Assembly: GCA_016932115.1 (NCBI GenBank)
Contig: JAFGDM010000075.1
Coordinates: forward strand, 1-38,654
Length of the DNA stretch: 38,654 bases
DNA from: Deltaproteobacteria bacterium
GTDB taxonomy: Bacteria; Desulfobacterota; DSM-4660; Desulfatiglandales; HGW-15
Direction of reading: 5' to 3'
Part shown: in pieces, positions 15,640-31,311 of the stretch
Layout of the letters: each line of letters starts with the position of its first letter
Numbering within the stretch: position 1 is the first letter of the stretch
The notes under the pieces: model-generated
The model's database searches: none
Seen by the model: the letters and a program-made list of their open reading frames with translations, nothing else
What the model was told of the DNA's origin: nothing
Program-made: the position numbers and the translations under genes

Positions 15640-15670
15640 GCACTGAGAAATGAACCTTCTTTTGTCGCCT

Positions 15671-15758
15671 GTCGCTTCCCTCCGCCGGTATTAACCGGAT
15701 CAGGTTCTAAGGGTTACCCCACCATCGGCGGGGCTCTCAGTGGGCCTCCCCTAGCGAC
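15671..15758 (-). promoter_or_regulatory. TPP riboswitch (THI element)
   Basis: Read on the minus strand, the P1 stem GTCGCT/AGCGAC (ends 15753-15758 and 15671-15676) encloses the conserved GGGG..CTGAGA element, then ACCCTTAGAACCTGATCCGG, the TTAATACCGG turn and the GGAGGGAAG 3' core. These are the diagnostic bases of the thiamin pyrophosphate aptamer. It precedes cytX, thiW, ecfA, ecfT and thiD-thiN. Confidence 0.97.
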
Positions 15759-15764
15759 AACTTG

Positions 15765-15796: not shown

Positions 15797-17572
15797 TTAA
15801 AGCAATCGTTTCGGAACGCCCCCTTCATCCCATCCCCGGAAGCCGTAATACTCTTTCACCATCGTCGCAAGCTCCTTCTCCGTGATTGTGTGGCCCGATG
15901 GAAGCGCCTCTCGGCAGAAACGCCGGGGAAGCCGATCCCGGTCCGGTTTCAAACCCTCCCTCAGGTTGAAGCTCCTCGTCATGTCGGCTATAAAAGCGGC
16001 CTTTTCCCTAAGATCCCGGGTGGACAGGTGTTTGCCGGTCGTCAGGGTTACGATTTTCTCCAGTTCTTCCCATGGGTAAATGTCCCTATAAAAACGACAC
16101 AAAATCAGAGAATCAAAAATGTTCAAGCGGTCTTCATAATCGATCAGCATTTCAGCCTTGCCTTGGATTGCGTCCGGCGCAATCAAGCCGGCCAGTTCCG
16201 CCTTGTAAAAGGTGGTTCGCAAATGACAGGCTCCCCGGTCCGAGGTCGCGTAGGCCAAGCCCATCCCCTTCAATACGCGCGGTTCGTAGCCCGCAGGCTC
16301 CATGCCCTTAACATGAACGGCAAATTCTTCCAGGTCCCAAGCTTTTGCCGCATTAACAATGCCTTCGGCCAGCACATCACCGATGCCTTTTCTTTCCGCG
16401 ATAAGGGTCAGAAGCGTCGCGACGCCACTTGCGTCTCCATATTTGATGGGATAGTCCACTTTCTTTTGCCTTGCCGCTTCAATGGTAAAGGCGCAAAGGT
16501 TGCCGGCAGTGATCGTGTCCATCCCCAGTCGGTCGCACAGGTCGTTGAGAAAGGCGATCTCTCCCATGTCATCGATCATGCACAACCCCCCAAAGGCATA
16601 AATCGTCTCATACTCGGGTCCTTCTATCACCAAGCCTTTATGACGACCGCTCATCAAGGTTGCCTTGCGGCCGCAGGCCATGAAGCACTTGAGGCACGCA
16701 TTGGGCTTGATCTCATGCTCCCGGTGAAATCTTTCCCCGGATATTTTCTCCCAATGCTCGCAGGTGCCCTGAGACCAGTATTTCGCTGGAAACGCCTGCG
16801 CCCGGTTCATGACGGTCACCATCATGGTGGTGCCAAGAGATCTGTAGGCCTTGACCCCGGGGTGCTCCAGGTTCCTTTTGGAAAATGCCTTGGCATAAGC
16901 GGCCGCTTCCTTCGGATCGGCAAGGGATCTTTTTCGGTCCCCTTGAAATACGATGGCCTTGAGTTTCTTGGCGCCCATAACAGTACCAACTCCGGTTCGG
17001 CCGGCGGACCGCCAGAGGTCGTTCTCGATCACCGCAAACCGGACCAGATTTTCTCCTGCCGGTCCGATCACCACGGCGCCGGGCTTTCCAAAGCCTTCCT
17101 TGACCACGGCAAATAGTTTTCTTGCCTCCTCCTCGCTACGATAGGTGTCAGCGCCCCATAGATCGCTTGCATCGAAAAATTCGCACCCTTCCGGGTGAAT
17201 CGAGAGGGCTGTGGGCGCCTTTGCGATCCCTCGGATCACAACCGCATCGAATCCCGCGGAATCGATCGCCTCAGGAACCTTGCCGCCCGAATAAGATTCA
17301 CTGTAACCGCCTGTGAGGGGGGACTTGGTGAACACGCCGTAGCGGCTCCCGCCCCAGAGCGGGCCTTGGCAAACAGGACCTGTCGCAAAGATCAGGTGAT
17401 TCTCTTCGGAGAAAGGCGAAACCTCCGGAGGATTCCTGTCCAGGAGCAAACGGGTTGCCAAGCCCTTGCCACCGATGCATTTCTCCGAAACCTCATCGGA
17501 CAGGGCTTCAATTTCAAAGGACCGATCCTTGACATCGACAACCAAAATTCGTCCGTAAGAGCCGAACATCAT
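15797..17572 (-). CDS. aor: Aldehyde:ferredoxin oxidoreductase (tungsten-type AOR family)
   Basis: AOR-family enzymes oxidise aldehydes to acids with ferredoxin, using a tungsten-bis-pterin cofactor and one [4Fe-4S] cluster in the cytoplasm. At 591 residues it has full family length. Visible features are GGKGLATRLL near the N-terminus, GGSRYGVFTKSPLTGGY (pterin domain), GRTGVGTVMGAKKLKAI, the cluster ligands Cys293, Cys296, Cys300 (NACLKCFMACG) and distal Cys492, plus EGPEYETI and TSDRGACH near the cofactor. GGGGGGTG precedes the ATG by 7 bases. It is co-oriented 137 bases after the first LIV set, so it may be the last gene of that transcript; no terminator was found in the gap. The substrate is unknown. 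Confidence 0.93.
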   Translation of the reverse strand: MMFGSYGRILVVDVKDRSFEIEALSDEVSEKCIGGKGLATRLLLDRNPPEVSPFSEENHLIFATGPVCQGPLWGGSRYGVFTKSPLTGGYSESYSGGKVPEAIDSAGFDAVVIRGIAKAPTALSIHPEGCEFFDASDLWGADTYRSEEEARKLFAVVKEGFGKPGAVVIGPAGENLVRFAVIENDLWRSAGRTGVGTVMGAKKLKAIVFQGDRKRSLADPKEAAAYAKAFSKRNLEHPGVKAYRSLGTTMMVTVMNRAQAFPAKYWSQGTCEHWEKISGERFHREHEIKPNACLKCFMACGRKATLMSGRHKGLVIEGPEYETIYAFGGLCMIDDMGEIAFLNDLCDRLGMDTITAGNLCAFTIEAARQKKVDYPIKYGDASGVATLLTLIAERKGIGDVLAEGIVNAAKAWDLEEFAVHVKGMEPAGYEPRVLKGMGLAYATSDRGACHLRTTFYKAELAGLIAPDAIQGKAEMLIDYEDRLNIFDSLILCRFYRDIYPWEELEKIVTLTTGKHLSTRDLREKAAFIADMTRSFNLREGLKPDRDRLPRRFCREALPSGHTITEKELATMVKEYYGFRGWDEGGVPKRLL

Positions 17573-17709: not shown

Positions 17710-18420
17710 TTAAGCGCCCAAGTATGCAGTCTTAACATGGGAATTTTCCAAAAGCGCTTCCGCAAGGCCCTCTATTTCTATGCGGCCGTTTTCCAAAACG
17801 TAACCTCTATCGCTCAAACTCAGCGAATGCTTTACATCTTGCTCCACGAGAAGGACGGTGGTCCCTTGGTCCGCTATTTTCCGCACGGTTTCAAAGATAT
17901 CCCTGATTAAGATGGGTGCCAGACCCAGAGAGGGTTCATCCAGCATGAGCAGCTTCGGCTTCGCCATAAGTCCTCTTCCGATAGCGACCATCTGTTGCTC
18001 TCCTCCCGAGAGTGTCATGGCAAGCTGGGATTCTCGTTCACGCAGCCGCGGCAGCAAACCGTAAACCTCTTCCATAAGCTGAGCAATGTGCCGATTCGCC
18101 CGGTTGTTGTAACCGCCTACGATCAGGTTATCCCTAACGCTCATCAGTGTGAAAAGCTTTCGACCTTCCGGTATCTGCACGATGCCTAGATTCACGATCT
18201 CCTCGGGCGGAGAGACATGGATTGGCTTCCCTTCAAAGGATATCGATCCTTGCTGGGGATGCAACAGTCCGGAAATCGTTTTCAGGAGCGTCGATTTTCC
18301 GGCCCCGTTGCCGCCGATGATGCTTACCACCTCCCCCTCGTAAACTTTCAGGGAAAGATCGAAAATCACCTGGACATCTCCATAGGAGACATCGATATTG
18401 CTGATCTCAAGAAACGCCAT
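17710..18420 (-). CDS. livF: LIV-type ABC transporter ATPase LivF (set 1)
   Basis: One of two nucleotide-binding subunits of a HAAT-family (branched-chain amino acid-like) importer, bound to the cytoplasmic face. The 236-residue protein has Walker A GGNGAGKST, signature LSGGEQQ, Walker B LLMLDEPSLGLAP and the LVEQD switch region (His replaced by Gln, as is normal for LivF). The C-terminal AYLG motif is typical. The start overlaps the livG stop by 14 bases. It is the last gene of liv set 1. Confidence 0.95.
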   Translation of the reverse strand: MAFLEISNIDVSYGDVQVIFDLSLKVYEGEVVSIIGGNGAGKSTLLKTISGLLHPQQGSISFEGKPIHVSPPEEIVNLGIVQIPEGRKLFTLMSVRDNLIVGGYNNRANRHIAQLMEEVYGLLPRLRERESQLAMTLSGGEQQMVAIGRGLMAKPKLLMLDEPSLGLAPILIRDIFETVRKIADQGTTVLLVEQDVKHSLSLSDRGYVLENGRIEIEGLAEALLENSHVKTAYLGA

Positions 18421-19132
18421 AGTCTTCTCCCAGGTAGGCCTTGATCACCCTTTCATCGTCGGCAACCTCCTTGGGTGTTCCTTCACAAATCTTTTTGCCG
18501 TAATGAATGACAACGATTCGATCGGATAGGGCCATGATTGCGCGCATGATGTGTTCAATGAGAAAGATTGTGATGCCGCTGTCTCGAAGATTCCTTATTA
18601 CGGCCACCATTTCGTCCACCTCCGTTGGGCGCAACCCGGCCATGACCTCATCCAGAAGCAAAAGCCTGGGTTCTGTTGCCAGTGCTCTACCAATTTCAAG
18701 TTTTTTTCGATCTGCTATGGTCAGATTGCCGGAATTCATATCCTTCTTGACATCCAGATGAAGAGATTTGAGAACGGCAAGAGCTTTTTCCTCGGCCTTG
18801 GATCTCTTCTTCGTTCTGGAAAAGCTTCCGACCATGACATTATAAAGCAAGCTTTTGGAGGCAAAGGGCTTCACGATCTGAAACGTACGGGCCAGACCCT
18901 TCCTGCAGAGGTCCCACGGTTTTTGATTATTGGTTTTTTCGCCGCAGAAGTAGACCTCTCCCGAACTCGGTGGATATACCCCTGCGATGCAATTAAATGC
19001 CGTTGATTTACCTGCACCGTTCGGGCCGATGAGGCCGAGGATCTGCCCCTCCTCAATGGCAAGGCTGAGGCCGTCTACCGCCCGGAGACCGCCGAAAGCC
19101 TTGATAAGATTTCTCAGTTCAAGAATCGCCAT
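18407..19132 (-). CDS. livG: LIV-type ABC transporter ATPase LivG (set 1)
   Basis: The second ATPase of LIV set 1, 241 residues. Walker A is GPNGAGKST, Walker B LLLLDEVMAGL, and the switch is LIEHIM with His. The ABC signature reads LTIADRKKLE instead of the textbook LSGGQ, a variant that I recognise from other LivG proteins. The C-terminus VIKAYLGEDYG is family-typical. AAGGA lies 7 bases before the ATG. It follows livM after 13 bases and overlaps livF. Confidence 0.95.
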   Translation of the reverse strand: MAILELRNLIKAFGGLRAVDGLSLAIEEGQILGLIGPNGAGKSTAFNCIAGVYPPSSGEVYFCGEKTNNQKPWDLCRKGLARTFQIVKPFASKSLLYNVMVGSFSRTKKRSKAEEKALAVLKSLHLDVKKDMNSGNLTIADRKKLEIGRALATEPRLLLLDEVMAGLRPTEVDEMVAVIRNLRDSGITIFLIEHIMRAIMALSDRIVVIHYGKKICEGTPKEVADDERVIKAYLGEDYGVS

Positions 19133-19145
19133 CCTCTATTCCTTA

Positions 19146-20144
19146 TTAACGAGACCTTCGATCAAGCCGGTTTAGAAGCCCGTTGTAGGCTTTCGTCAAT
19201 GGTTGTTGGAGACCCCGGGGAAGATAGATCATAACCAGAATGAGCACCATGCCGAAAATGATCAGATGAAGGCCCGGCAGGGTGGCGCCGAAGTATATCC
19301 GGGAGAAATCGCTTACGGGCCGAAGCAGAAGAGCCCCCAGCACCGGACCGACGATGGAGCCCCGTCCGCCTATCAAGGCGATGAAAGCTATTTCAAAGGA
19401 AAGGTCCAGGGAAATAACGCTTTTTGGATGGATGAAAAGTGAAAACTGGGCATAGAAAGAGCCGGCGAGGGCCGTGAGAAAAGAACTCATGGCCATGGCA
19501 ATGAGCTTGCATCGCGCCACATTCACCCCCAAGGACATAGCCGCCTCAGGTTCCTCACCTCCTGCGTTCAGGTAGTAACCCAACCTCGAGCGTGATATGA
19601 AATAAGTCACTGCAAGAACGGCGATCAGCATGACAAGGATGATATAGTAGTAAGGCTCTTTGTTGGTGAACATGAGATTGGCCAGCCCGACGTTCAGCGG
19701 CGGGATCTGAAGCCCCCTTGGGCCGTTAATGTTGAAAGGCCCAAGGTGATCGATATTTTCTACCATGACCCTCATCCCCTCGCCGAAAGCGATGGTGGCC
19801 AACGCAAAATAGGCCCCGCGCATTTTAAAGGTCGGTAAGCCGATCATAACCCCTGTTATCGACGCGAGCACACCCCCCAGGACCATGCCGAACCACGGAC
19901 TCACGCCGTATTGCACATAGAGTACCGTGGAAGTGTAAGCCCCTATGCCGAAAAATGCGGCATGCCCCAGCGGCAGCACGCCTGCGAAGCCACCCACGAG
20001 ATTCCAGCTTGTTGTCAGATACGCATAGAGGTAAAGCAGAACCAGGATGTGGAGATATGTGGGGCTGCGCAAGATCAGCGGCAGCCCGAAGACAATGATC
20101 AGAACAAGGGTTAGAAAAGCTTTTTGCAGGTTTTCCCTGGTCAT
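19146..20144 (-). CDS. livM: LIV-type ABC transporter permease LivM (set 1)
   Basis: A 332-residue inner-membrane permease with about nine to ten hydrophobic helices. The family segment SWNLVGGFAGVLPLGHAAFF lies in the first third, followed by GAYTSTVL and later IALIGGRGSIVGPVLGA, which contacts the ATPases. It forms the pore with LivH. It starts 26 bases after the livH stop and ends just before livG. Confidence 0.95.
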   Translation of the reverse strand: MTRENLQKAFLTLVLIIVFGLPLILRSPTYLHILVLLYLYAYLTTSWNLVGGFAGVLPLGHAAFFGIGAYTSTVLYVQYGVSPWFGMVLGGVLASITGVMIGLPTFKMRGAYFALATIAFGEGMRVMVENIDHLGPFNINGPRGLQIPPLNVGLANLMFTNKEPYYYIILVMLIAVLAVTYFISRSRLGYYLNAGGEEPEAAMSLGVNVARCKLIAMAMSSFLTALAGSFYAQFSLFIHPKSVISLDLSFEIAFIALIGGRGSIVGPVLGALLLRPVSDFSRIYFGATLPGLHLIIFGMVLILVMIYLPRGLQQPLTKAYNGLLNRLDRRSR

Positions 20145-20170
20145 TCTCGCACCCGCTTTAGCGTGGTTTC

Positions 20171-21058
20171 CTACCAGTCATACCTTACCCCGAACAACCC
20201 CGAGGGCTTCACGAACAGGAACAGAAGAAAAAGCCCATACACGATGCCCTCGGCCCACGTGGCCGCCATAAACTGGGGGCCGACGGATTCAATCACTCCG
20301 ATAATCATGCCTCCCAGGATAGCGCCTCCAATGCTTCCCAGTCCACCGAGCACCACAATGATGAATCCTTTAATGTCGAAGAGCACTCCGACGGTAGGGA
20401 AAACATTGTAAAAGGGGACGAGCGTGACCGCGGCAATCCCGGCCGTGGCCGTGCCGATCCCAAAGGCGATGTTATAAATTTTGAATTGCTTAATCCCCAT
20501 CAAGCTTGCTGCCTCCCTGTCAAGGCTCGTTGCCCGTATCGCACGGCCCATGCTCGTCTTCTGCAAGAATAAATACACGGCTGCGGCCGTGAGTACGGCC
20601 GCAGAGAACCCCCACAGTTTGGGTACGGATATCAACATGCCTCCAAGTTCCAGCATCTTGCCGCGCAATGGGTTCTCCTGGATCGTTCTGTAGTGTGGGC
20701 CGAAAATGAGGAGCGTGAGGTTGTCCAGGACGTACCAGACACCCGTTGTGACGATGATAACCGTAATAGGCTCTCGAACCTCGCTTTCAGCTTTGAAAAT
20801 AGGCTTTATGACGATATCCTGAAGGTAGTAGCCGAAAAGGTACATGACGGGTATCACCAGGATCAAGGTCAGGTAGGGGTGCGCGCCTGAAAGGGTCACA
20901 GCCCAATAAGCTACATACATCCCCACCATGAGCAGCGACCCATGGGCGAAATTAATGACCTTGAGTACCCCGAAAATAAGTGTGAGCCCGAGTGCGGTTA
21001 GACCGTAGATGGACCCCATGAGTATCCCGTTGATGGTGTCTTCCAGGATAAATACCAT
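20171..21058 (-). CDS. livH: LIV-type ABC transporter permease LivH (set 1)
   Basis: A 295-residue permease with about eight hydrophobic helices. It shows the LivH N-terminus NGILMGSIYGLTALGLTLIF followed by GVLKVINFAHG, the GRAIRATSLDREAASLMGI coupling segment and a late VVLGGLGSIGGAILGG loop. GGAGG lies 6 bases before the ATG. It is separated from its binding-protein gene by a 12-bp stem-loop that probably lowers expression of the permease genes relative to the binding protein. Confidence 0.95.
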   Translation of the reverse strand: MVFILEDTINGILMGSIYGLTALGLTLIFGVLKVINFAHGSLLMVGMYVAYWAVTLSGAHPYLTLILVIPVMYLFGYYLQDIVIKPIFKAESEVREPITVIIVTTGVWYVLDNLTLLIFGPHYRTIQENPLRGKMLELGGMLISVPKLWGFSAAVLTAAAVYLFLQKTSMGRAIRATSLDREAASLMGIKQFKIYNIAFGIGTATAGIAAVTLVPFYNVFPTVGVLFDIKGFIIVVLGGLGSIGGAILGGMIIGVIESVGPQFMAATWAEGIVYGLFLLFLFVKPSGLFGVRYDW

Positions 21059-21093
21059 AAGAGCCTCCCTTGCTCAGGCTATTCACCTTCTAT

Positions 21094-21124
21094 GGATCAC
21101 GCGGCTGGACGGGCCGCGTGATCC
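21094..21124 (-). terminator. Perfect 12-bp intercistronic stem-loop
   Basis: GGATCACGCGGC (21094-21105) and GCCGCGTGATCC (21113-21124) enclose a seven-base loop, between the binding-protein gene and livH. There is no T run, so it fits a partial terminator or an RNA-protecting hairpin at the 3' end of the highly needed binding-protein message. Confidence 0.75.
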
Positions 21125-21151
21125 TTCCCCGTTGAGGTGAACGAAAGTTGC

Positions 21152-22399
21152 TCAAGGCATGGGGAAAACAGGTTGGTATCCGGCCCTGCGAGCATTCTTG
21201 GGCCACACGGTGATTCGCTCCATCCCTTTCCCTATATCGTTAATCTGCACCATAACAAGAGAAGCGTGCTTGTTCTGCCCTGTCTTATCGAATTCAACAG
21301 CATCGTAGCCCACGATCATTCCTCGACCGCTTCCGAGATTTGTGGTTGCCAGGGCTTCCCGGATCTTGACCGGGTCAAGAGAAGCCGCTCTTTCCATGGC
21401 GTCCGCCAGAACATACATAGCCAGGTAGGCGTCTACGGACTCACCCGCCAAGTTGTAACCGTATCTGGACTTGAATTTTTCGTTGGCCTCCTTGGCACCC
21501 GGCTTGTTTACATCCGTCTCCCACTCCACGATGTCGAAGAGATACTGCGCGTTCTTTCCTGCCGCCTGCAGGAAGGATGGGTCCGCATGGCCGCCACCGC
21601 TGCCGATGATGGCCTTCAACTTGACCCTGTAATCCGCCAGTGTGTTGGTCAACAGGATTGCATCCGCCGCGTTTGAGACAAGCAACAGCACGTCCGGGTT
21701 CGCCCGTTTGATCTTCTGAACGATAGGGCTGAGATCTGTGGCTGTCGAAGGGTAGGGCTCATCGAGAACCACCTTGTAGTCACCCTTCTTGGCCAGTTCT
21801 TTCCACTGTTCGGCAAACCCTTTTCCCCAGTCGCCGTTTTCGTAAACAAAGGCAATCTTTTCAAGCTTGGCATTGAACTCTTTTTCCATATCCCGCAAGA
21901 ATGCGAACTGGTCTCTGGTCCACCAACTGTCCTTTGCGGCGATGCGGAATACGGTCTTGAAGCCCTGCTCCGTGATCTTGTCCGCCACGGAAACAGGGAC
22001 GATAAAGGGGATGCCGTAACGTTCCGCCACCGCGGTCGTTGGATAGGTGACCGCCGAGTTCCAGCACCCTGTCAAAACATGAACCTTCTCGGTGTTGATG
22101 AACCGCTCGGCTTCCGCTACACCCTTTTCCGGTTTTGACTCCGAATCCGTATAGAGCATGACCAGCTTTGCTCCACCGAGCGATTTGATACCGCCGGCCG
22201 CATTGATTTCCTCTACGGCCATTTCACGGGCATTTTTGCCCTGCTGGCCCACTGAAGCAGACGGGCCTGAAAGGGGAATAATATTACCCACTTTGACTAC
22301 CTTGTCCTGTGCGAGACAGACTGAACCTGCACCCAAAGCCATGGTCAGAACCCACAAAACCGCCGAGCACACTCCAATTTCTTTGATAGGCTTTTTCAT
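21152..22399 (-). CDS. LIV-type ABC transporter substrate-binding protein (set 1)
   Basis: A periplasmic type I binding protein of the LivK/HAAT family, 415 residues. A signal peptide (basic MKKPIKE, hydrophobic core, end near CLAQ) precedes the mature VVKVGNIIPLSGPSASVGQQ start. The hinge-domain segments INAAGGI and FVYENGDWGKGFA are family-typical. The ATG at 22399 has GAGGAGG upstream; the frame continues further but with no protein features. It is only distantly similar to the second binding protein in the window, so the two sets probably take different ligands. The ligand cannot be read from sequence; branched-chain amino acids are one option, amides or aromatic acids others. Confidence 0.92.
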   Translation of the reverse strand: MKKPIKEIGVCSAVLWVLTMALGAGSVCLAQDKVVKVGNIIPLSGPSASVGQQGKNAREMAVEEINAAGGIKSLGGAKLVMLYTDSESKPEKGVAEAERFINTEKVHVLTGCWNSAVTYPTTAVAERYGIPFIVPVSVADKITEQGFKTVFRIAAKDSWWTRDQFAFLRDMEKEFNAKLEKIAFVYENGDWGKGFAEQWKELAKKGDYKVVLDEPYPSTATDLSPIVQKIKRANPDVLLLVSNAADAILLTNTLADYRVKLKAIIGSGGGHADPSFLQAAGKNAQYLFDIVEWETDVNKPGAKEANEKFKSRYGYNLAGESVDAYLAMYVLADAMERAASLDPVKIREALATTNLGSGRGMIVGYDAVEFDKTGQNKHASLVMVQINDIGKGMERITVWPKNARRAGYQPVFPMP

Positions 22400-22585
22400 A
22401 CTTTTCCTCCTCTCCTGGTTTGAAATTGATTCTTTTAACGTAAGAAGTCGGCAAATGATTCCGGCGTTTCCCTTCCGGATTAAGTATGAAAGAAACTCAA
22501 AGTTTATCGTAAGCCTTTTTAAATGTAACACCGGCGGCGCCGGACATGGGAACCTCTCTCATCTCGAGGTCAACACAAGCCAGTA

Positions 22586-23293
22586 TCAGTATCCGAGATA
22601 AGCTCTCTGAACATGAGGGTTTGCCGCTAATTTTTCGCCTGTGTCTTCCAGGCGGATTCGACCGTTTTCCAAGACGTAGCCCCGCGCGGCCACCTGAAGC
22701 GCCCATCGAGCGTTTTGTTCTACCAGAAGAATGGTAATATCCTTTTCCTGGTAAATTTGCCGGATAACGGCAAAAATGTTGTCCCTGAGGACGGGGGCCA
22801 GCCCGAGGCTGGGTTCGTCGAGCATCAGCAATTTGGGTTCGGCCAGCAAACCGCGACCTATGGCAAGCATCTGGGCTTCGCCACCTGAAAGGGTTCCCGC
22901 CGACTGGTTGATCCGCTCTTGCAGCCGCGGAAGCAACGCGAAGACAAAATCCATGTCTTTCCGCACAGCGTTCTCGTCCTTGCGGCAAAAAGCGCCCATA
23001 CGAAGGTTTTCTTCAACGGTGAGATCCGGGAACACAGCCCTGCCTTCAGGCACATGGATGATCCCCCGCTGCACAATCTTGTGAGAAGGCAGTTTCTGGA
23101 TTTCCTCTCCGTCGAAAATGGTCCGCCCTTTGATGGGCGGTTTTATTCCGGAAACGCACTTCAACAAGGTGGATTTCCCGGCGCCGTTGGATCCGAGAAG
23201 CGTAACCAATTCGCCGCGTTCCAAGTGAAGAGAAACATCCATCAAGGCTACCGCCTTTCCGTAAGTGACGTTTATTTCTTCAACGCGCAGCAT
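22586..23293 (-). CDS. livF: LIV-type ABC transporter ATPase LivF (set 2)
   Basis: The 235-residue ATPase has Walker A GSNGAGKST, signature LSGGEAQ, Walker B LLMLDEPSLGLAP, LLVEQN at the switch and a C-terminal AYLGY. The ATG at 23293 has GGAGG 8-9 bases upstream and lies inside the end of livG; a TTG at 23308 is the alternative. It ends set 2. After it come 186 bases with a short CCGGC/GCCGG hairpin (22531-22543), then the binding-protein gene of set 1. Confidence 0.95.
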   Translation of the reverse strand: MLRVEEINVTYGKAVALMDVSLHLERGELVTLLGSNGAGKSTLLKCVSGIKPPIKGRTIFDGEEIQKLPSHKIVQRGIIHVPEGRAVFPDLTVEENLRMGAFCRKDENAVRKDMDFVFALLPRLQERINQSAGTLSGGEAQMLAIGRGLLAEPKLLMLDEPSLGLAPVLRDNIFAVIRQIYQEKDITILLVEQNARWALQVAARGYVLENGRIRLEDTGEKLAANPHVQRAYLGY

Positions 23294-24068
23294 GGCTCTC
23301 GCCTCCAAGATAGGCCTCTACCACGTTCGGGTCGGTGTACACGGCTTCGGGTTTTCCATCGGCGATTTTCTTGCCGTAATGAATCACGACCAACCGGTCT
23401 GAGATGTCCATGATTACTTTCATCACATGTTCAATGATGAGAATGGTGATCCCCTGTTTGTTGATTTCGCGAATCAGCGCGATCTGGTCGACCAGCTCAG
23501 CCGGATTGAGCCCCGAACTGGGCTCGTCCAGAAGAAGCAACTTAGGCCGAGTGGCTAGGGCACGCGCAATCTCCAGTCTTTTTGTCAATGCATAGGGCAA
23601 ATTCTCGGCGAGTTCATCACGGTAGCCGCCGATCCCCACAAGCTCCAAAAGCCCCTCGGCAGCCGCGCGATTTTCAGGATTTTGGCTCTGCTTCCCGAAA
23701 CCCCCGACCAAGGAAGCAAACGCCAGGCGCCAAGGCCCTTTTTGCCGCCGATCCACCAGCCCGGCCATGACATTTTCAAGTGCCGTCAGCTTGGAAAAAA
23801 TCCGAACCACCTGAAAGGTCCTTGCAATTCCCCTATTGTTGATGGCATGCGCCTTGTGCCCCGCAATGTCCGTTCCATTAAAAAGGATGCGACCATGGTT
23901 CGGGGGAATGGCTCCGGATATCATGTTCACAAGCGTCGTCTTCCCTGCGCCGTTGGGGCCGATAAGGCCCATGATTACTTTTTCATCGAGGCTGAACGAA
24001 ACACTGTCGACCGCACACAATCCGCCAAAGTATTTGGTGAGATTTTCGATCTTGAGAATTTCAGTCAT
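23280..24068 (-). CDS. livG: LIV-type ABC transporter ATPase LivG (set 2)
   Basis: A 262-residue ATPase with Walker A GPNGAGKTT, Walker B LLLLDEPSSGLNP, switch LIIEHVM and the C-terminal AYLGG. The signature region reads LPYALTKRLE, a LivG variant of LSGGQ. An insertion of about 15 residues after GLVDRR makes it longer than the set 1 copy. The ATG at 24068 overlaps the livM stop; upstream residues belong to the livM frame shadow. Confidence 0.95.
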   Translation of the reverse strand: MTEILKIENLTKYFGGLCAVDSVSFSLDEKVIMGLIGPNGAGKTTLVNMISGAIPPNHGRILFNGTDIAGHKAHAINNRGIARTFQVVRIFSKLTALENVMAGLVDRRQKGPWRLAFASLVGGFGKQSQNPENRAAAEGLLELVGIGGYRDELAENLPYALTKRLEIARALATRPKLLLLDEPSSGLNPAELVDQIALIREINKQGITILIIEHVMKVIMDISDRLVVIHYGKKIADGKPEAVYTDPNVVEAYLGGESHAAR

Positions 24069-25071
24069 GATCGCCACCGGCGTTCCGGCCTTTGCCATAA
24101 CTGCTGAATCCTTCCTTGAGCGCACGAACAACGCCCACTAAACCTTCTCTCATGAAACGGATGGTCAAAATCAGCAGGAATCCGTAAAGCACCAGCCGGA
24201 TGTCCATTCTGAAAAAATCCTCCAAAGTTCTGAGCCACTCGGAAAGAAGACTCAGCAGAACAGCACCCAGAATCGGCCCGGCCGTGGTACCCAACCCGCC
24301 GATCATGGTCATCGTCAATGTGTCGAAGGTCACATGCAAAGACATTGTATCGGGACTGACAAGGCGTGTGAAATGAGCGAAAAGCCCGCCCGCCATACCG
24401 GCGAAAAACGCACTGATGGTAAAAACCGCCAGCTTATACTGGGATGTATGAATCCCGATGCTCTGAGCGCCCTGCTCGTCATCACGAAGAGCCTGCAAGC
24501 TTACACCAAATTCGGAATGAGTGAATCGCAGCATGCAGAAATAGGTGAACACAACCGCCGCCAGGACGACGTAATAATAATCGCGTTCGAAATAGAACTC
24601 CATCCCCCAGCTGCCTAATCTGATTGGAGTGAGCAAGGGAATTCCGGATAGGCCCAGAGACCCCCTGGTCAGATCAACCCAGTTGACGGCTACAAGCCTG
24701 AGAATCTCGGCAAATCCGATGGTGGTAATCGCCAGGTAGGGCCCGGAGAGCCGCAACGCCGGAAACCCTAGCAGGAATCCGAAAAATCCGGCAATGACGC
24801 CGCCGCCAAGCAATCCGAACCATGGTGAAACGCCCAGTTTCATGGCCAAAAGGGCGCTTGAATAGGCGCCGATCCCAAAAAAAGCTGCGTGACCCAGGTT
24901 AAGTTGGCCGCTATATCCGGCCAAGAGGTTCCAGCTCATCGTCATGATCGTATAAATTCCCGCCATAACGACGATATGCAGGAAATAACGTTCCTGTACA
25001 ACCTGAGGCAGGATGAGCAAGGCCGCGACCACCGCGACGGATCTAAGGCGATGTTTCAGTCGCTTGCTCAT
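24061..25071 (-). CDS. livM: LIV-type ABC transporter permease LivM (set 2)
   Basis: A 336-residue polytopic permease with the hallmark SWNLLAGYSGQLNLGHAAFF stretch, GAYSSALL and TMIGGLGTTAGPILGA near the ATPase contact. It has roughly nine hydrophobic helices. Its ATG overlaps the livH stop (ATGA) with GGAGG upstream, and its end overlaps livG. The C-terminal tail is Gly- and charge-rich. Confidence 0.95.
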   Translation of the reverse strand: MSKRLKHRLRSVAVVAALLILPQVVQERYFLHIVVMAGIYTIMTMSWNLLAGYSGQLNLGHAAFFGIGAYSSALLAMKLGVSPWFGLLGGGVIAGFFGFLLGFPALRLSGPYLAITTIGFAEILRLVAVNWVDLTRGSLGLSGIPLLTPIRLGSWGMEFYFERDYYYVVLAAVVFTYFCMLRFTHSEFGVSLQALRDDEQGAQSIGIHTSQYKLAVFTISAFFAGMAGGLFAHFTRLVSPDTMSLHVTFDTLTMTMIGGLGTTAGPILGAVLLSLLSEWLRTLEDFFRMDIRLVLYGFLLILTIRFMREGLVGVVRALKEGFSSYGKGRNAGGDHD

Positions 25072-25949
25072 GTTCCCTCCTTGGCGCCGAAAAGCCCCCG
25101 AGGTCGAAGCAAAAGGACTAAAATGATGATGAAGAAACCTATCGCATGCTGATATTCCATGGCCAGATAATTCCCCCCGAGGGATTCAGCGATACCCAGA
25201 ATAAATCCGCCGAAAATGGCGCCGCGAATGTTGCCCATTCCTCCTAGGATGGTGACCACAAATGCTTTCAAAGTGGGCATCGCACCCATAAGAGGATGAA
25301 CGGCGAAGGTGGTACCATAGAGAACCCCGGCCACTCCGGCCAAGGCTGCTCCAACCCAGAAGGTGAGAGTGTAAATCAGGTTGATGTCGACACCCATGAG
25401 CTGCGCGGCAAAACGGTTCTGACTGGTGGCCCTTATAGCAACTCCCAGTTTACTCCGGTTGAGGAAGATCTGGAGTGCCCCGATTGCGATGCAAGAGAAG
25501 CCGAAGCAGAAGACTCGCAGCACGCTGGTTGAAACACCGCCTATATGAACGGTGGCGCCCTTAAAAGGATCGGAAATCATCTGGGGTGTGGCGCCAAAAA
25601 AGAGCTGGGCCAAGTTCTCCAAAAGAATGAACAGCCCGATGGAGACCATAATGATATCGATGTCGGTCCAGCGTCCGATAAGGGGTCGAAAAATCAAGCG
25701 CTCCGTTACGATACCCAGTATTCCCACAACGGCGGCAGCGGCAATGATGGAACCCACCCAGCCCATCCACCCGGGGACCCAGGCCATTAGGAATACCGCT
25801 GTGTAAGCCCCAACCATGGAATAATCGCCATGAGCGAAATTGCTGATCTTCATGACCCCGAAGATCATGGTCAACCCGATGGCGATTAGGCTGTAAATAC
25901 TTCCTATGATCAGGCCGTTTAGGGTTTGCTGCAAAAACAGCGATTCCAT
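25068..25949 (-). CDS. livH: LIV-type ABC transporter permease LivH (set 2)
   Basis: A 293-residue permease. NGLIIGSIYSLIAIGLTMIF near the N-terminus, then GVMKISNFAHGDYSM, GVAIRATSQNRFAAQLMGV and VTILGGMGNIRGAIFGG identify LivH. About eight membrane helices. It starts 35 bases after its binding-protein gene, with AAAGG upstream; no stem-loop lies in this gap, unlike set 1. Confidence 0.95.
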   Translation of the reverse strand: MESLFLQQTLNGLIIGSIYSLIAIGLTMIFGVMKISNFAHGDYSMVGAYTAVFLMAWVPGWMGWVGSIIAAAAVVGILGIVTERLIFRPLIGRWTDIDIIMVSIGLFILLENLAQLFFGATPQMISDPFKGATVHIGGVSTSVLRVFCFGFSCIAIGALQIFLNRSKLGVAIRATSQNRFAAQLMGVDINLIYTLTFWVGAALAGVAGVLYGTTFAVHPLMGAMPTLKAFVVTILGGMGNIRGAIFGGFILGIAESLGGNYLAMEYQHAIGFFIIILVLLLRPRGLFGAKEGT

Positions 25950-25984: not shown

Positions 25985-27211
25985 TTACTTGCACCGGCGC
26001 TGATCCCACGGTTTGGGTGTTTGATATTCGGCTGCAGCCCGTTCCGCCGGATATATGATCTGGGTGTCGGCCTTACAGTTGTTATCAAGTTGCACCTGCA
26101 CCGGAGAAGGGAAGACAGTGTCGACCTGGCCGGTTTTGTCGAATCGGATGAGACCCTGGGAGAGCTTCATATTCGTTGCCGCCAGAGAGTCCCGGATCTT
26201 TTTACGGTCTGCGGCCAAATTTCCCGTCGGCTTGCCGGCGCGCTCGACAGCATCCAGAATCACCTGGAGGTTGTCATACCCCTGACTGGAAAAAATGCCG
26301 GGCCTGCTCCCTGGAAACTTCGCCTGATAGGCATTGACAAAAGCCGCCGTAACCGGGTCTTTCATGGCCTTTGTCGGTTCAAGAGAAGATCCCATGGCGT
26401 ACTCGCTGACCGGACCTGTCATCTCGAAGTAGGCCTGCGTGAACTGTCCCCCGACGCCGATCCACTGGGTGACGAAATTCAGTTCCTTGGCCTGTTTCTG
26501 GATAAGTGCGGCTTCAGTTGTTGAAGCGATGTTGAAAACCACATCCGGAGTTTTGTCTTTAAGTTTTGAGATGGCCGCCGTGAAATCGGTGCTGCCGATC
26601 TCGAAGTAGAGTCGATCCAGCACCTGAGCCCCGATCTTCTCGCACTGGGCCTCCCAAATTTTCTGACCGTCCCTGCCGTAATCCGAATTTTCCATGAAAA
26701 AGGCAACCCTCTTAGGGCGCTTCACTTTCGCAAGCCATTCATTGATTCCCTCCAGAAACTGTGGGCTATTCGGGCTGGTCCGGAAGACAAAATCATAGCC
26801 GCGGTTGGTAATCGTCGGGCTGATGGCAATGGCCACCACGTTGGGGCAGCCTTCGTAGTGACAGAACTCGCTGGTAGCGATGTTGACGCTGGAGGCGTAA
26901 CCTCCGCCCACAACCAGAACGTTGTCCCGAGTGACGAGTTTCTTGACTGCAGCCAGACCCTTGTCAGGCTTGGCTTCGGTGTCACCGAAAATTAATTCGA
27001 TCTGCTGCCCGAAGAGACCGCCTTTGGCGTTCACCTCATCCAGTGCCAACTCCATGCCTTTTTTCATTTCACCGGCGTTGAAGGCAAGCGAACCGGTAAA
27101 TGGGCCAAGAATGCCGATCTTAACCGTAGCCGAGCCTAAAGCCGGCATTACCAAAGCCGAAATCATCGCCAGACAGGCGGCAACCAAAATCAAACGCGTT
27201 CTTGTTTTCAT
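25985..27211 (-). CDS. LIV-type ABC transporter substrate-binding protein (set 2)
   Basis: A 408-residue periplasmic binding protein. The signal peptide (MKTRTRL, hydrophobic core, cleavage near ALGSA) leads into TVKIGILGPFTGSLAFNAGE, the usual start of a HAAT-family receptor. VNAKGGLFGQQIEL and FMENSDYGRDGQK are typical. The ATG at 27211 has GAGGAGGG upstream. Extra Cys pairs (HYEGC region, and CK at the C-terminus) could form disulfides. It lies 74 bases after the M20 deacylase gene, so its ligand may be the substrate of the enzymes encoded upstream. Confidence 0.93.
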   Translation of the reverse strand: MKTRTRLILVAACLAMISALVMPALGSATVKIGILGPFTGSLAFNAGEMKKGMELALDEVNAKGGLFGQQIELIFGDTEAKPDKGLAAVKKLVTRDNVLVVGGGYASSVNIATSEFCHYEGCPNVVAIAISPTITNRGYDFVFRTSPNSPQFLEGINEWLAKVKRPKRVAFFMENSDYGRDGQKIWEAQCEKIGAQVLDRLYFEIGSTDFTAAISKLKDKTPDVVFNIASTTEAALIQKQAKELNFVTQWIGVGGQFTQAYFEMTGPVSEYAMGSSLEPTKAMKDPVTAAFVNAYQAKFPGSRPGIFSSQGYDNLQVILDAVERAGKPTGNLAADRKKIRDSLAATNMKLSQGLIRFDKTGQVDTVFPSPVQVQLDNNCKADTQIIYPAERAAAEYQTPKPWDQRRCK

Positions 27212-27285: not shown

Positions 27286-28551
27286 TCATTCAAATGACTT
27301 ACACCAGCGCAAGAGAAAAAGAGCATAAACCTTGGCCGTATGAACAATGCTGTCAATATTCACACATTCGTTTTCAGCGTGGATCCTTTTCGCTACCGGA
27401 CCAAAACAGGTAGCTTGCCCTTGACCAAAATGAACAAAGGTTCTTAAGTCTGTTGTTGCCGTAGAAACGAAATCCTCAGGTAACCTTCCGCTCAAATCGT
27501 GCTGACAACTTCCAAGCACCTTCAGTGCGGGCAGATCCCGACTGATAGAGTGCCCTTCGGATCGAAATCCGTAAAAATCGATGCGAGGTGGATTCTTGGA
27601 GAGCCATGCATCGGCGGAGGAGGCCTCGGCAATGGTCTTCTCCAACATGTTACGTATTTCGGGATAAGCTATGTCGGGCGTAAAGCCAAGCCGGCAGTGA
27701 AACTCCGCAAAGGCCGGTACCGTTGAAGGCCAGTCGCCTCCCTTGATAATCCCGATGTTGAGATTGGCCGGATGACGTGAGCCGGAAAATGCGGGATGTA
27801 CTTTCCGGTTCAGATTTTCCTCGAGATTTCGGAGAGCTTTGAATAGAGGAAAGCACTTTTCAATTGCATTGACCCCGCCCTGCGCGTCCAGAACATGCAT
27901 GGGCACTCCGTTCAGGGTCACCTTAAACCACACGACCCCGACCTGGGCGGTGAGAATTGTGGGGCCGAAAGGTTCCGGTATCAGGACCGCGTCCGCGTCG
28001 ACCCCGGCATTGAGGCATGCCAGTGCTCCATTGCCCGAACATTCTTCCTCGATCACGGTTTCCAGAAAGACGGCCGCTCTAAGTCCAAACCCGGCTGCAT
28101 CTACGGCTTTAAGCGCGTAGGTCATGGCGGCAACACCGGACTTCATGTCCCCGGAGCCCCTCCCGAAAAGCCATCCTTCACTTTCAAAAGGTTCAAAAGG
28201 GTCCCGATCCCAGCGCTCGAGCGGCTCGGGACTCACCACGTCCAGGTGGCCGTTGAAAAGGGCGCTTTTCCCGCCTTCCCGGTCGGCCGGTCGATGGGCC
28301 ACGATGTTGTATCGTCCTTCGTATCCCCATGGCACGGGCCCGAAACCAGGGTGTTCACGTAGAAGCTCCGGGTCGATGAAAATACGGCGGTGGGTGAACC
28401 CAAGCTTGGTCAGTTCTGCTTCCATGACCTCTAGAGCGGATGCCTCGTTTCCAAGCGTGCTCGGCTGTGCAACCAAGCGCTTTGTCAGATCCACGATTTC
28501 CGGAACCAAGGATTCGACGGATCCTATGAGCTTCTCTTCCTGGCTATTCAT
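27286..28551 (-). CDS. M20-family metallo-deacylase (ArgE/DapE type)
   Basis: A cytoplasmic zinc amidohydrolase of about 421 residues, of the family that holds acetylornithine deacetylase, succinyl-diaminopimelate desuccinylase and N-carbamoyl amino acid hydrolases. The first ligand motif FNGHLDVVSP, the GRGSGDMKSG Asp, the catalytic EEECSGNGAL and a late HAENECVNID with the last His are visible. The dimerisation lid lies between. The start is uncertain: ATG at 28551 gives a normal N-terminus but has no clear ribosome binding site; a TTG at 28662 would add 37 residues that do not look conserved. It is co-oriented between the carbamoyltransferase and LIV set 2. The exact acyl group is unknown. 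Confidence 0.88.
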   Translation of the reverse strand: MNSQEEKLIGSVESLVPEIVDLTKRLVAQPSTLGNEASALEVMEAELTKLGFTHRRIFIDPELLREHPGFGPVPWGYEGRYNIVAHRPADREGGKSALFNGHLDVVSPEPLERWDRDPFEPFESEGWLFGRGSGDMKSGVAAMTYALKAVDAAGFGLRAAVFLETVIEEECSGNGALACLNAGVDADAVLIPEPFGPTILTAQVGVVWFKVTLNGVPMHVLDAQGGVNAIEKCFPLFKALRNLEENLNRKVHPAFSGSRHPANLNIGIIKGGDWPSTVPAFAEFHCRLGFTPDIAYPEIRNMLEKTIAEASSADAWLSKNPPRIDFYGFRSEGHSISRDLPALKVLGSCQHDLSGRLPEDFVSTATTDLRTFVHFGQGQATCFGPVAKRIHAENECVNIDSIVHTAKVYALFLLRWCKSFE

Positions 28552-28728: not shown

Positions 28729-29673
28729 TTATGAACAGAACAAAGCCAGTACTGCCTTCTCAGTGTGCATACGGTTCTCCGCTTCATCGTAATAGGCTGA
28801 ATTGGGCCCTTCGAAAATCGCCTCGGTGGCCTCGATTCCCGGGTACCCCGGGCCGCAGTGCATGAAAACATAGTCGGGCTTGGCCTCCTTTACCGCGTTT
28901 TCGTTGATCTGGTAAGGAGCAAAATCCTTTTTGCGCTTCTCCTTTTCTGCATCGTGAGCCATGCTAAAAAACACGTTGGCCACCACTACGTCTGCGCCGT
29001 CCATCGCCTCCGCAAGATTTCGGGTCAAAATCATTTTGCTCCCCCCTGCCGCCGCGTGCTCTTTGGCAAACTTGAGAATATCCGGGTGAGGGTCATAGCC
29101 CTCCGGAAATGCCATGTACATATCCATGCCCATGATGCTGCATCCAACCATAAGCGAATGGCAAACATTCCAGGGGTCTCCGGACCAGGCGACCTTTAGG
29201 TTGTCGAGTCTCCCTTTTTTCTCCCAGATGGTAAGCAAGTCGGCCAAGCCCTGGCACGGGTGCGTGAAATCGGAACAGGCGTTGATCACGGGATGTTTCA
29301 TGTACTCCGCAAAGAGGTTCAAGGTTTTTTGGCCTGTGCCCGAAGCAGGTCGAATAAACAACCCGTCGTAATAGCGGTCCAACACCCGGGCAGTATCCCT
29401 AAGGGATTCGCCCCTGGAAAGCTGCAGTTCATCGGGCCTCATGTAAATAGCTTGGGCGCCCAGATGAGCGGCCGCCACCTGGAAGGAATTCCTGGTGCGT
29501 GTCGAGGGCTTTTCAAAAAGAGCCCCAAAGGTTTTTCCCTTCAGGAATTCATGGGGCTCTTTCATGGCCAGTTTCATCTTCAAGTCGTAAGAAACTCGGA
29601 TCATGTCCCGGATGTCTTCCCGGGTAAAATCCATAAGGGTCAGGAAGTCCTTTCCACGAAATCTGTCAATCAT
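28729..29673 (-). CDS. Divergent ornithine/aspartate-type carbamoyltransferase
   Basis: A 314-residue carbamoyltransferase. The carbamoyl-phosphate loop FEKPSTRTRNSF (Ser57-Thr60), HPCQ (138-141) and the C-terminal DEAENRMHTEKA match the OTC family. The amino-acid side differs: the OTC loop DxxxSMG reads NVFFSMAHD (Asn233 in place of the ornithine-binding Asp), and the HCLP motif reads HCGPGYPG (272-279, Leu replaced by Gly). The second substrate is therefore probably not plain ornithine, or the enzyme works in another direction. GGAG lies 7 bases before the ATG. It follows the aminotransferase by 171 bases on the same strand. Confidence 0.9.
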   Translation of the reverse strand: MIDRFRGKDFLTLMDFTREDIRDMIRVSYDLKMKLAMKEPHEFLKGKTFGALFEKPSTRTRNSFQVAAAHLGAQAIYMRPDELQLSRGESLRDTARVLDRYYDGLFIRPASGTGQKTLNLFAEYMKHPVINACSDFTHPCQGLADLLTIWEKKGRLDNLKVAWSGDPWNVCHSLMVGCSIMGMDMYMAFPEGYDPHPDILKFAKEHAAAGGSKMILTRNLAEAMDGADVVVANVFFSMAHDAEKEKRKKDFAPYQINENAVKEAKPDYVFMHCGPGYPGIEATEAIFEGPNSAYYDEAENRMHTEKAVLALFCS

Positions 29674-29844: not shown

Positions 29845-31155
29845 TTAAAGTTTTAGCGATGCCAAGCCTTCTTCCAAAATGCTCAATCCAGTTTCTAACT
29901 GATCATCGGTAATGACAAGCGGCATTAGGATTCGGACCACGTTGCTTAAATTACCACACACCAGAATGAGAAGCCCTCGCTCCACGCAAAATTTTGCCAC
30001 TTCCTTGGCTTGGTCCGGAGCAGGATCTTTTCGCTCCCTGTCCTTTACCAGCTCCATCGCCAGCATGGGTCCCAGCCCGCGGACATCGCCGACAATTTCA
30101 TATTTTTCCTTGAAAGCGTCCAAACGCGATTTTACCTTCCGGCCGAGGGCTTCAGCTCTTTCAAGAAGGTTCTCCTCCTCGAAAATCTCCAGCACCGCCA
30201 GGGCCGCTCTGCAGGACACCGGGTTCCCTCCGTAGGTTCCCCCGATGCCGAAAGGGTGGATGCTGTCCATCAGCTCTTTTCTTCCCACTACCCCGCTCAG
30301 GGGCATTCCGGCAGCCAGACTCTTGGCAACCACGGTGAAATCGGCCTCCACGTCGTAGTGCTCCATGGCAAACATTTTGCCGGTCCTCCCCATACCTGTT
30401 TGAACCTCATCACTGATAAACAGGATATCGTTCTCCCTGCAAATCGCGAAGAGTTTCTTAAAATATTCCGGCGGAGGGGCGATAAATCCGCCTTCGCCCT
30501 GAACGGGTTCAGCGATCACCGCTGCCACCATTTCCGGCGCAACATGATTGACGAAAAACGTTTTGAGGTGATCGGCGCATGCCACCTGACAAGAGGGGTA
30601 TTCCAGGCAGAAGGGACACCGGTAGCAATAAGCAAACGGCATGCGATAAACTTCCGGCGCAAACGGGCCGAATCCGAATTTGTAAGGCTTGACTTTGCTC
30701 GTCAAGGTCATGGTCAGCAACGTCCGGCCGTGATAGGCATTCTCAAAGGCGATGATGCCCGCTTTCTTGCTTGCATACCGGGCGATCTTCACGGCGTTTT
30801 CGACGGCCTCGGCTCCGCTGTTGACAAAGAGAACAGATTTAGCAAACTTGCCCGGAACGAGGTTGCACAACTTTTCCGCCAACTCAACGGGTGCCGCATA
30901 GGGGGCAACCATAAAGCAGGTGTGGGTGAATTTTTCGGCCTGGTCCTTGATGGCCGCCACCACCTTGGGGTGGCTATGGCCTACGTTCATTACGGCGATA
31001 CCCCCTGTGAAATCGATGTAATTTTTACCTTCCACATCGGTGATGACCGCCCCCCTGGCCGAGGCTACATAAACGGCATTCCCGCTGCCATGCCCCGCCG
31101 GAATAGCGTTCTCACGACGCTTTTGAAGATCGGCATTGCTCAACGTTTTTTTCAT
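29845..31155 (-). CDS. Class III PLP aminotransferase (4-aminobutyrate transaminase-like)
   Basis: A 436-residue fold-type I PLP enzyme that moves the amino group of an omega-amino acid to an oxo acid. It shows NSGAEAVE (phosphate contact, 112-119), the FENAYHGRT segment, EPVQGEGG, SDEVQTGMGRTG with Asp249 contacting the pyridine nitrogen, and the Schiff-base Lys278 in VVAKSLAAGMPLSG. A Cys-rich stretch (Cys177, 180, 183, 189, 193) marks the subgroup that holds bacterial and archaeal GabT-like and omega-amino acid enzymes. ACGGAG lies 8 bases before the ATG. It is the first gene after the sigma54 promoter. GABA, 5-aminovalerate, ornithine or lysine are possible donors. Confidence 0.9.
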   Translation of the reverse strand: MKKTLSNADLQKRRENAIPAGHGSGNAVYVASARGAVITDVEGKNYIDFTGGIAVMNVGHSHPKVVAAIKDQAEKFTHTCFMVAPYAAPVELAEKLCNLVPGKFAKSVLFVNSGAEAVENAVKIARYASKKAGIIAFENAYHGRTLLTMTLTSKVKPYKFGFGPFAPEVYRMPFAYCYRCPFCLEYPSCQVACADHLKTFFVNHVAPEMVAAVIAEPVQGEGGFIAPPPEYFKKLFAICRENDILFISDEVQTGMGRTGKMFAMEHYDVEADFTVVAKSLAAGMPLSGVVGRKELMDSIHPFGIGGTYGGNPVSCRAALAVLEIFEEENLLERAEALGRKVKSRLDAFKEKYEIVGDVRGLGPMLAMELVKDRERKDPAPDQAKEVAKFCVERGLLILVCGNLSNVVRILMPLVITDDQLETGLSILEEGLASLKL

Positions 31156-31295: not shown

Positions 31296-31311
31296 GGCAA
31301 GGTCCGTGCCA
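31296..31311 (-). promoter_or_regulatory. Sigma54 (RpoN) -24/-12 promoter
   Basis: Read on the minus strand the bases are TGGCACGGACCTTGCC, which matches the sigma54 consensus TGGCACG-N4-TTGC with GG and GC exactly 12 bases apart. It lies about 140 bases before the aminotransferase ATG on the same strand, with start of transcription near 31285. An enhancer-binding regulator would be required; none is encoded in the window. Confidence 0.82.

Follow-up and report, generated by a model that had tools for sequence, protein, structure and literature searches.

An ornithine transcarbamylase-derived subfamily with an altered amino acid site, a candidate for phosphorolysis of omega-ureido acids

The residues of the carbamoyltransferase family that bind carbamoyl phosphate (CP), together with the DxxxSMG loop that binds ornithine in ornithine transcarbamylase (OTC), have been defined in a family review, according to which the HxLP side chains make no direct contact with the substrate (PMC4581275), and HP[LG]P is found in true ATCases (PMC4016543). 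A catabolic precedent is provided by YgeW, which removes a ureido group by phosphorolysis when urate is degraded anaerobically and, jointly with the M20 enzyme YgeY, strips the ureido groups from a urate-derived intermediate (PMC12507026). The DNA analyzed here (the window) is the whole 38,654-nucleotide stretch of contig JAFGDM010000075.1 from a Deltaproteobacteria bacterium (GCA_016932115.1), and a variant carbamoyltransferase of 314 amino acids is encoded at 29673..28729 (-). Judged from its sequence, this protein belongs to a distinct, OTC-derived subfamily of a known enzyme kind.

The open reading frame was intact over 314 codons and contained both Pfam carbamoyltransferase domains. The CP side was held to be intact in the original prediction, and indeed S57-T58-R59-T60, H138-P-C-Q141 and the remaining ligands R108, C273, R301 and Q84 were all present. 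The reading frame, coordinates, strand and motifs given for the other side of the site were likewise exact: Asn233, within VANVFFSMAHD, replaces the ornithine-binding Asp of the DxxxSMG loop (E. coli Asp231), SMG is SMA, and HCLP is HCGP within H272-C-G-P-G-Y-P-G279. The accompanying claim that these positions contact the amino acid stood for the Asp site but not for the HxLP side chains. Since HxLP lacks such contact and true ATCases may carry HP[LG]P, the Leu-to-Gly replacement in HCLP was regarded as the weaker sign, and HCGP was dropped as a mark of new specificity, as the relatives described below carry HCLP and some ATCases HPGP. HCGP, SMA and a three-residue insert after the CP-binding Arg108 (FIRPASGTGQ) were features of the window copy only, being absent from its relatives G140 and G279. 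Additional changes were found in the 80s loop (RPDE, within RPDELQ) and in the aromatic residue preceding N169 (GDPWN). The ornithine-contacting Asn of GDxxN (N169, corresponding to E. coli N167) and the Cys of HCxP (equivalent to E. coli Cys273) were retained.

The motif tests for OTC thus found SxRT and HPxQ in the window protein, with NVFFSMA in place of DxxxSMG and HCGP in place of HCLP. With the NCBI equivalog model for OTC, TIGR00658, the protein scored 352.7 bits against a cut-off of 280.85. Because this model accepts it and the Enterococcus mundtii relative has been annotated as argF, the clade is probably misannotated as OTC/argF. An ordinary OTC was encoded elsewhere in the same genome, adjoining a gene that reads as argG. 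Assignment to other described carbamoyltransferases was rejected in each case. Putrescine carbamoyltransferase (PTC) was dismissed on score (TIGR04384, 253.6 versus 500 bits) and on GDPWN and FFSMAHD instead of GDxTQ and YGLYEA, and YgeW on score (TIGR03316/PRK07200, 79–85 bits versus 500/453) and on length (314 amino acids versus models of 391–396 positions). By the definitions in PMC4016543, ATCase was rejected on HCGP rather than HP[LG]P and a 240s loop without RxQ, and UGTCase on HCGP rather than H[ST]LP; the Dap/Dab carbamoyltransferases were rejected on HCGP rather than HDLP. A structure model, envisaged in the original prediction as a check, bore out an OTC-like fold (AlphaFold, pLDDT 84; TM 0.93 to P. 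furiosus OTC) and gave no sign of a new one, but as it cannot show a ligand it was uninformative on the substrate.

An alignment of 59 rows was built from the organism's own OTC and ATCase, OTCs of several phyla, OTCs of arginine deiminase (ADI) operons, three PTCs and four OTCs from the PDB. In this alignment, Asp occupied the position of Asn233 in 53 of 53 OTC and PTC rows, and the only proteins with another residue were the window protein and three relatives (N, N, N and M). Two of the relatives, from genomes G140 and G279 of the same phylum, were 64% identical to the window protein and carry Asn; the third, from an E. mundtii plasmid, carries Met and was 54% identical to the G140 protein. 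The 80s loop reads RPDE[LM]Q in all four members, and the aromatic residue of GDx[WFY]N is found in the clade members, the E. mundtii protein having GN. In the maximum-likelihood tree the four formed a clade (support 100/98; 100/100 once the active-site columns were removed) on a stem of 0.67 changes per site, with an end branch of 0.48 for the window protein. As the original prediction had implied, this clade stood apart from the PTCs and from all OTC groups, proven OTCs included, with the order among the deeper OTC groups left unsettled by the tree.

A clade member was found in three of 395 genomes of the phylum sample and in one of 85 in the window's class. Since members are so rare in the phylum, yet the G140 and G279 proteins are 86% identical despite their hosts belonging to different families, these distributions suggest that the gene has moved by horizontal transfer. 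No additional clade members emerged from searches of the class, order and family surrounding the organism's own genome, G140, G279 and G057, and most hits of the window protein in a contig scan of genomes were ordinary OTCs of Paenibacillus and Alicyclobacillus. Several phage-labelled INPHARED records (L075-L080) appear to be host contigs, with OTC and PTC genes of the host type.

In the window, the gene order was a sigma-54-type promoter, a GABA-type transaminase, the carbamoyltransferase, an M20 hydrolase and a branched-chain-type ABC transporter. The promoter-like element (TGGCACG-N4-TTGC, 31311..31297 (-)) was an exact match lying some 140 bases upstream of where the aminotransferase gene starts, with 0.02 such −24/−12 elements expected in the window by chance. 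Among 93 loci, TGGCACN5TTGC occurred only at the window and G279 sites, besides overlapping copies of those two. No sigma-54 activator gene adjoined the window element, unlike in G140 and G279. The class III aminotransferase upstream of the carbamoyltransferase (29845..31155 (-)) scored best as a GABA-transaminase (TIGR00700, 553 bits; cut-off 506.65), and was 58% identical to the transaminase adjoining the G140 carbamoyltransferase, which also exceeds that cut-off. The ArgE/DapE-type M20 metallo-hydrolase (27286..28551 (-)) has its likely start at ATG 28551, within a longest open reading frame from 28662. It is followed by the ABC substrate-binding protein of branched-chain-amino-acid type (25985..27211 (-), likely start 27211) and by two permeases and two ATPases of the same transporter (22586..25949 (-); frames 25949-25068, 25071-24061, 24131-23280 and 23308-22586), assigned by reading the sequences. 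A second transporter of this type, again with a binding protein, two permeases and two ATPases (17710..22531 (-)), is linked to the enzyme by proximity only. Its gene run ends in an aldehyde:ferredoxin oxidoreductase (15797..17572 (-)), which may possibly oxidise the semialdehyde product of the transaminase. Neither a guanidine riboswitch nor any other was found near the carbamoyltransferase gene; the one riboswitch seen, an unrelated TPP switch (15660-15762 (-)), precedes what is probably a cluster for ThiD and the transport of thiamine precursors (15600-10284).

The relatives lie in neighbourhoods with a deiminase. In G140, the order was a sigma-54 activator, GABA-type transaminase, carbamoyltransferase, carbamate kinase, ATCase-like carbamoyltransferase and DDAH/ADI-type deiminase; in E. 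mundtii, a PucR-type regulator, carbamoyltransferase, YfcC transporter and deiminase; and in G279, a sigma-54 activator, sigma-54-type site, carbamoyltransferase and ABC transporter, with the deiminase approximately 18 kb away. The second carbamoyltransferase of G140 (L036:6470-7474 (+); SIRT, HPTQ, HPFP, no RxQ), which overlaps the end of the carbamate kinase gene, is possibly another catabolic transcarbamylase. Also in G279 (L064:3432-7222 (-)), genes for an M24 protein (creatinase/prolidase-type), a deiminase and an M20 protein are consecutive beside a polyamine-type ABC transporter, a possible further guanidino-compound cluster.

Aligned to Pseudomonas DDAH (PaDDAH), the deiminases of G140, E. 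mundtii and G279 retain the catalytic E114/H162/C249, the guanidinium-binding D66, and R85 and R132, but have Tyr, Val or Lys at the position of D60. The human enzyme holds the alpha-amino group through Asp73, the guanidine through Asp79 and the carboxylate through Arg145 (PMC10958460); D60 was matched to Asp73 because each lies six residues from the Asp that binds the guanidinium. As position 60 also varies (Met, Phe, Glu) in family members that have no carbamoyltransferase close by, the loss of D60 is not specific to these clusters. Both deiminase and transferase thus lack the acidic alpha-amino ligand, with the carboxylate arginines kept in the former and the CP site in the latter. Because the alpha-amino Asp is missing from both enzymes, which are expected to act consecutively, these changes point to a guanidino acid lacking an alpha-amino group as the pathway substrate. 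Neither a guanidinobutyrate deiminase route, nor ureidobutyrate phosphorolysis, nor a similar transcarbamylase was found in the literature searched; rhizobial 4-guanidinobutanoate is instead cleaved by a ureohydrolase. The Sinorhizobium meliloti plasmid pMl1 (L067) carries a deiminase homologue accompanied by an amidase, a class III transaminase, a BKACE enzyme of 3,5-dioxohexanoate-cleavage type and an ABC transporter of arginine type, a set that could form a hydrolytic counterpart, a guanidino-acid pathway.

We therefore consider it close to an even chance that the window protein is a phosphorolytic transcarbamylase for an omega-ureido acid with a carboxylate and no alpha-amino group, most likely 4-ureidobutyrate, in a guanidino-acid version of the ADI pathway; the substrate class, the reaction direction and the chain length are what we infer here. 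Under this scheme, the deiminase of the relatives would convert a guanidino acid and water to a ureido acid and ammonia, the carbamoyltransferase would convert the ureido acid and phosphate to an omega-amino acid and CP, the carbamate kinase of the relatives would recover ATP from CP, and the transaminase would turn the omega-amino acid into a semialdehyde. Because a GABA-type transaminase adjoins the gene in two genomes, the likeliest chain would run from 4-guanidinobutyrate through 4-ureidobutyrate (N-carbamoyl-GABA) to GABA, shorter and longer analogues being possible. The enzyme would then probably recover energy from compounds like guanidinobutyrate, rather than make or use citrulline. 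Weighed against this explanation were the small number of known clade members (n = 4), the GABA-type transaminase not adjoining the G279 gene, and the gaps of approximately 170–180 bases between the window genes, which leave co-transcription undecided.

In the window genome, a 95%-complete draft in 323 contigs in which absence is not final, no match was found to a carbamate kinase or to a DDAH/ADI-type deiminase, and the organism's own use of the enzyme, with its M20 hydrolase and ABC transporter, is hence less certain. The organism might take up the ureido compound from outside or obtain it through the M20 enzyme, on the model of YgeW/YgeY, and the CP might go into the synthesis of pyrimidines or arginine; alternatively, the reaction may proceed towards carbamoylation. 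The earlier suggestion of a ureido compound yielding CP for ATP accordingly fits G140, which has both carbamate kinase and deiminase, but its ATP part is not supported in the window genome, where neither partner was found. That of a second substrate other than ornithine gained support from the phylogeny, the coordinated motif changes, the separate OTC by argG and the deiminase-linked relatives.

The chain length might differ within the same chemistry and family: the residue changes are uninformative on it, and class III GABA-type transaminases can use beta-alanine or 5-aminovalerate. Hence the substrate might instead be 3-ureidopropionate, which would yield beta-alanine as the reductive breakdown of uracil does, or 5-ureidovalerate (des-amino citrulline). 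We regard this as unlikely, given that the window transaminase scores best as a GABA-transaminase and that the window showed neither a dihydropyrimidinase gene nor any other gene of the uracil pathway. The M20 gene directly downstream and the YgeY/YgeW precedent for ureido removal by such a pair would fit a substrate with two ureido groups, or an acyl and a ureido group, handled much as in urate degradation. However, the window M20 belongs to another subfamily (444 bits to PRK06837, 92–115 to the YgeY models), the window showed no gene for a hydantoinase, SsnA or YgeX, and no M20 gene adjoins the G140 or E. mundtii genes, which makes this reading quite improbable.

Passing the OTC cut-off, retaining the equivalents of E. 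coli N167 and Cys273 and superposing on P. furiosus OTC are what would be expected if the protein were still a transcarbamylase of ornithine, or of a modified ornithine, that tolerates Asn or Met at the Asp position. We hold this, too, to be quite improbable in view of the invariant Asp in the OTC/PTC rows, the separate clade on its long stem and the other OTC beside argG in the same genome. Very improbable is a window copy that is decaying or of little activity, with HCGP, SMA and the insert as signs of degeneration. Their absence from the two closest relatives and the missing carbamate kinase and deiminase would be in keeping with decay, but the frame is intact, every CP ligand is kept, 64% identity is maintained with no frameshift, a neighbour gene is conserved, the model is confident, and the end branch is long without being extreme.

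The ureido-acid phosphorolysis preferred here, if true, would add a new substrate class to a family that textbooks have long used to illustrate specificity, account for a group of genes that automatic annotation names argF, and give anaerobes a route from guanidino acids to ATP; further members could be sought by RPDE[LM]Q, Gxx[WFY]N and no Asp before SM. More tentatively, and with some doubt, the clusters may add to the energy-conserving dihydrolase pathways of arginine and agmatine a third, in which both enzymes lack the alpha-amino Asp and which occurs, misannotated as argF, in mobile or horizontally moved clusters of at least two phyla.

Compared with OTC (ArgF/ArcB; Pyrococcus furiosus OTC, PDB 1a1s/1pvv), the window protein shares the fold, length, CP site, approximately 46% identity and an unknotted chain, whereas it differs in the Asn for the DxxxSMG Asp, SMA, HCGP, the RPDE 80s loop and the aromatic residue before the pocket Asn, and its gene lies outside any arginine operon. 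PTC of the agmatine deiminase pathway sets a precedent, being derived from OTC and working in a deiminase pathway of its own, but there the Asp is retained to bind the distal amine, and the motifs are GDATQ and YGLYEA. With YgeW/YgeY, the window shares an M20 neighbour and the catabolic phosphorolysis of a ureido compound proposed here, although YgeW is a knotted, longer enzyme. Like the ADI pathway (ArcA-ArcB-ArcC), G140 has a deiminase, an OTC-like carbamoyltransferase and a carbamate kinase, and the YfcC transporter of the E. mundtii cluster is found also in a true ADI operon (R. antarcticum); the deiminase of the relatives differs in being of the short DDAH-like type and, as is the carbamoyltransferase, in lacking the alpha-amino Asp.
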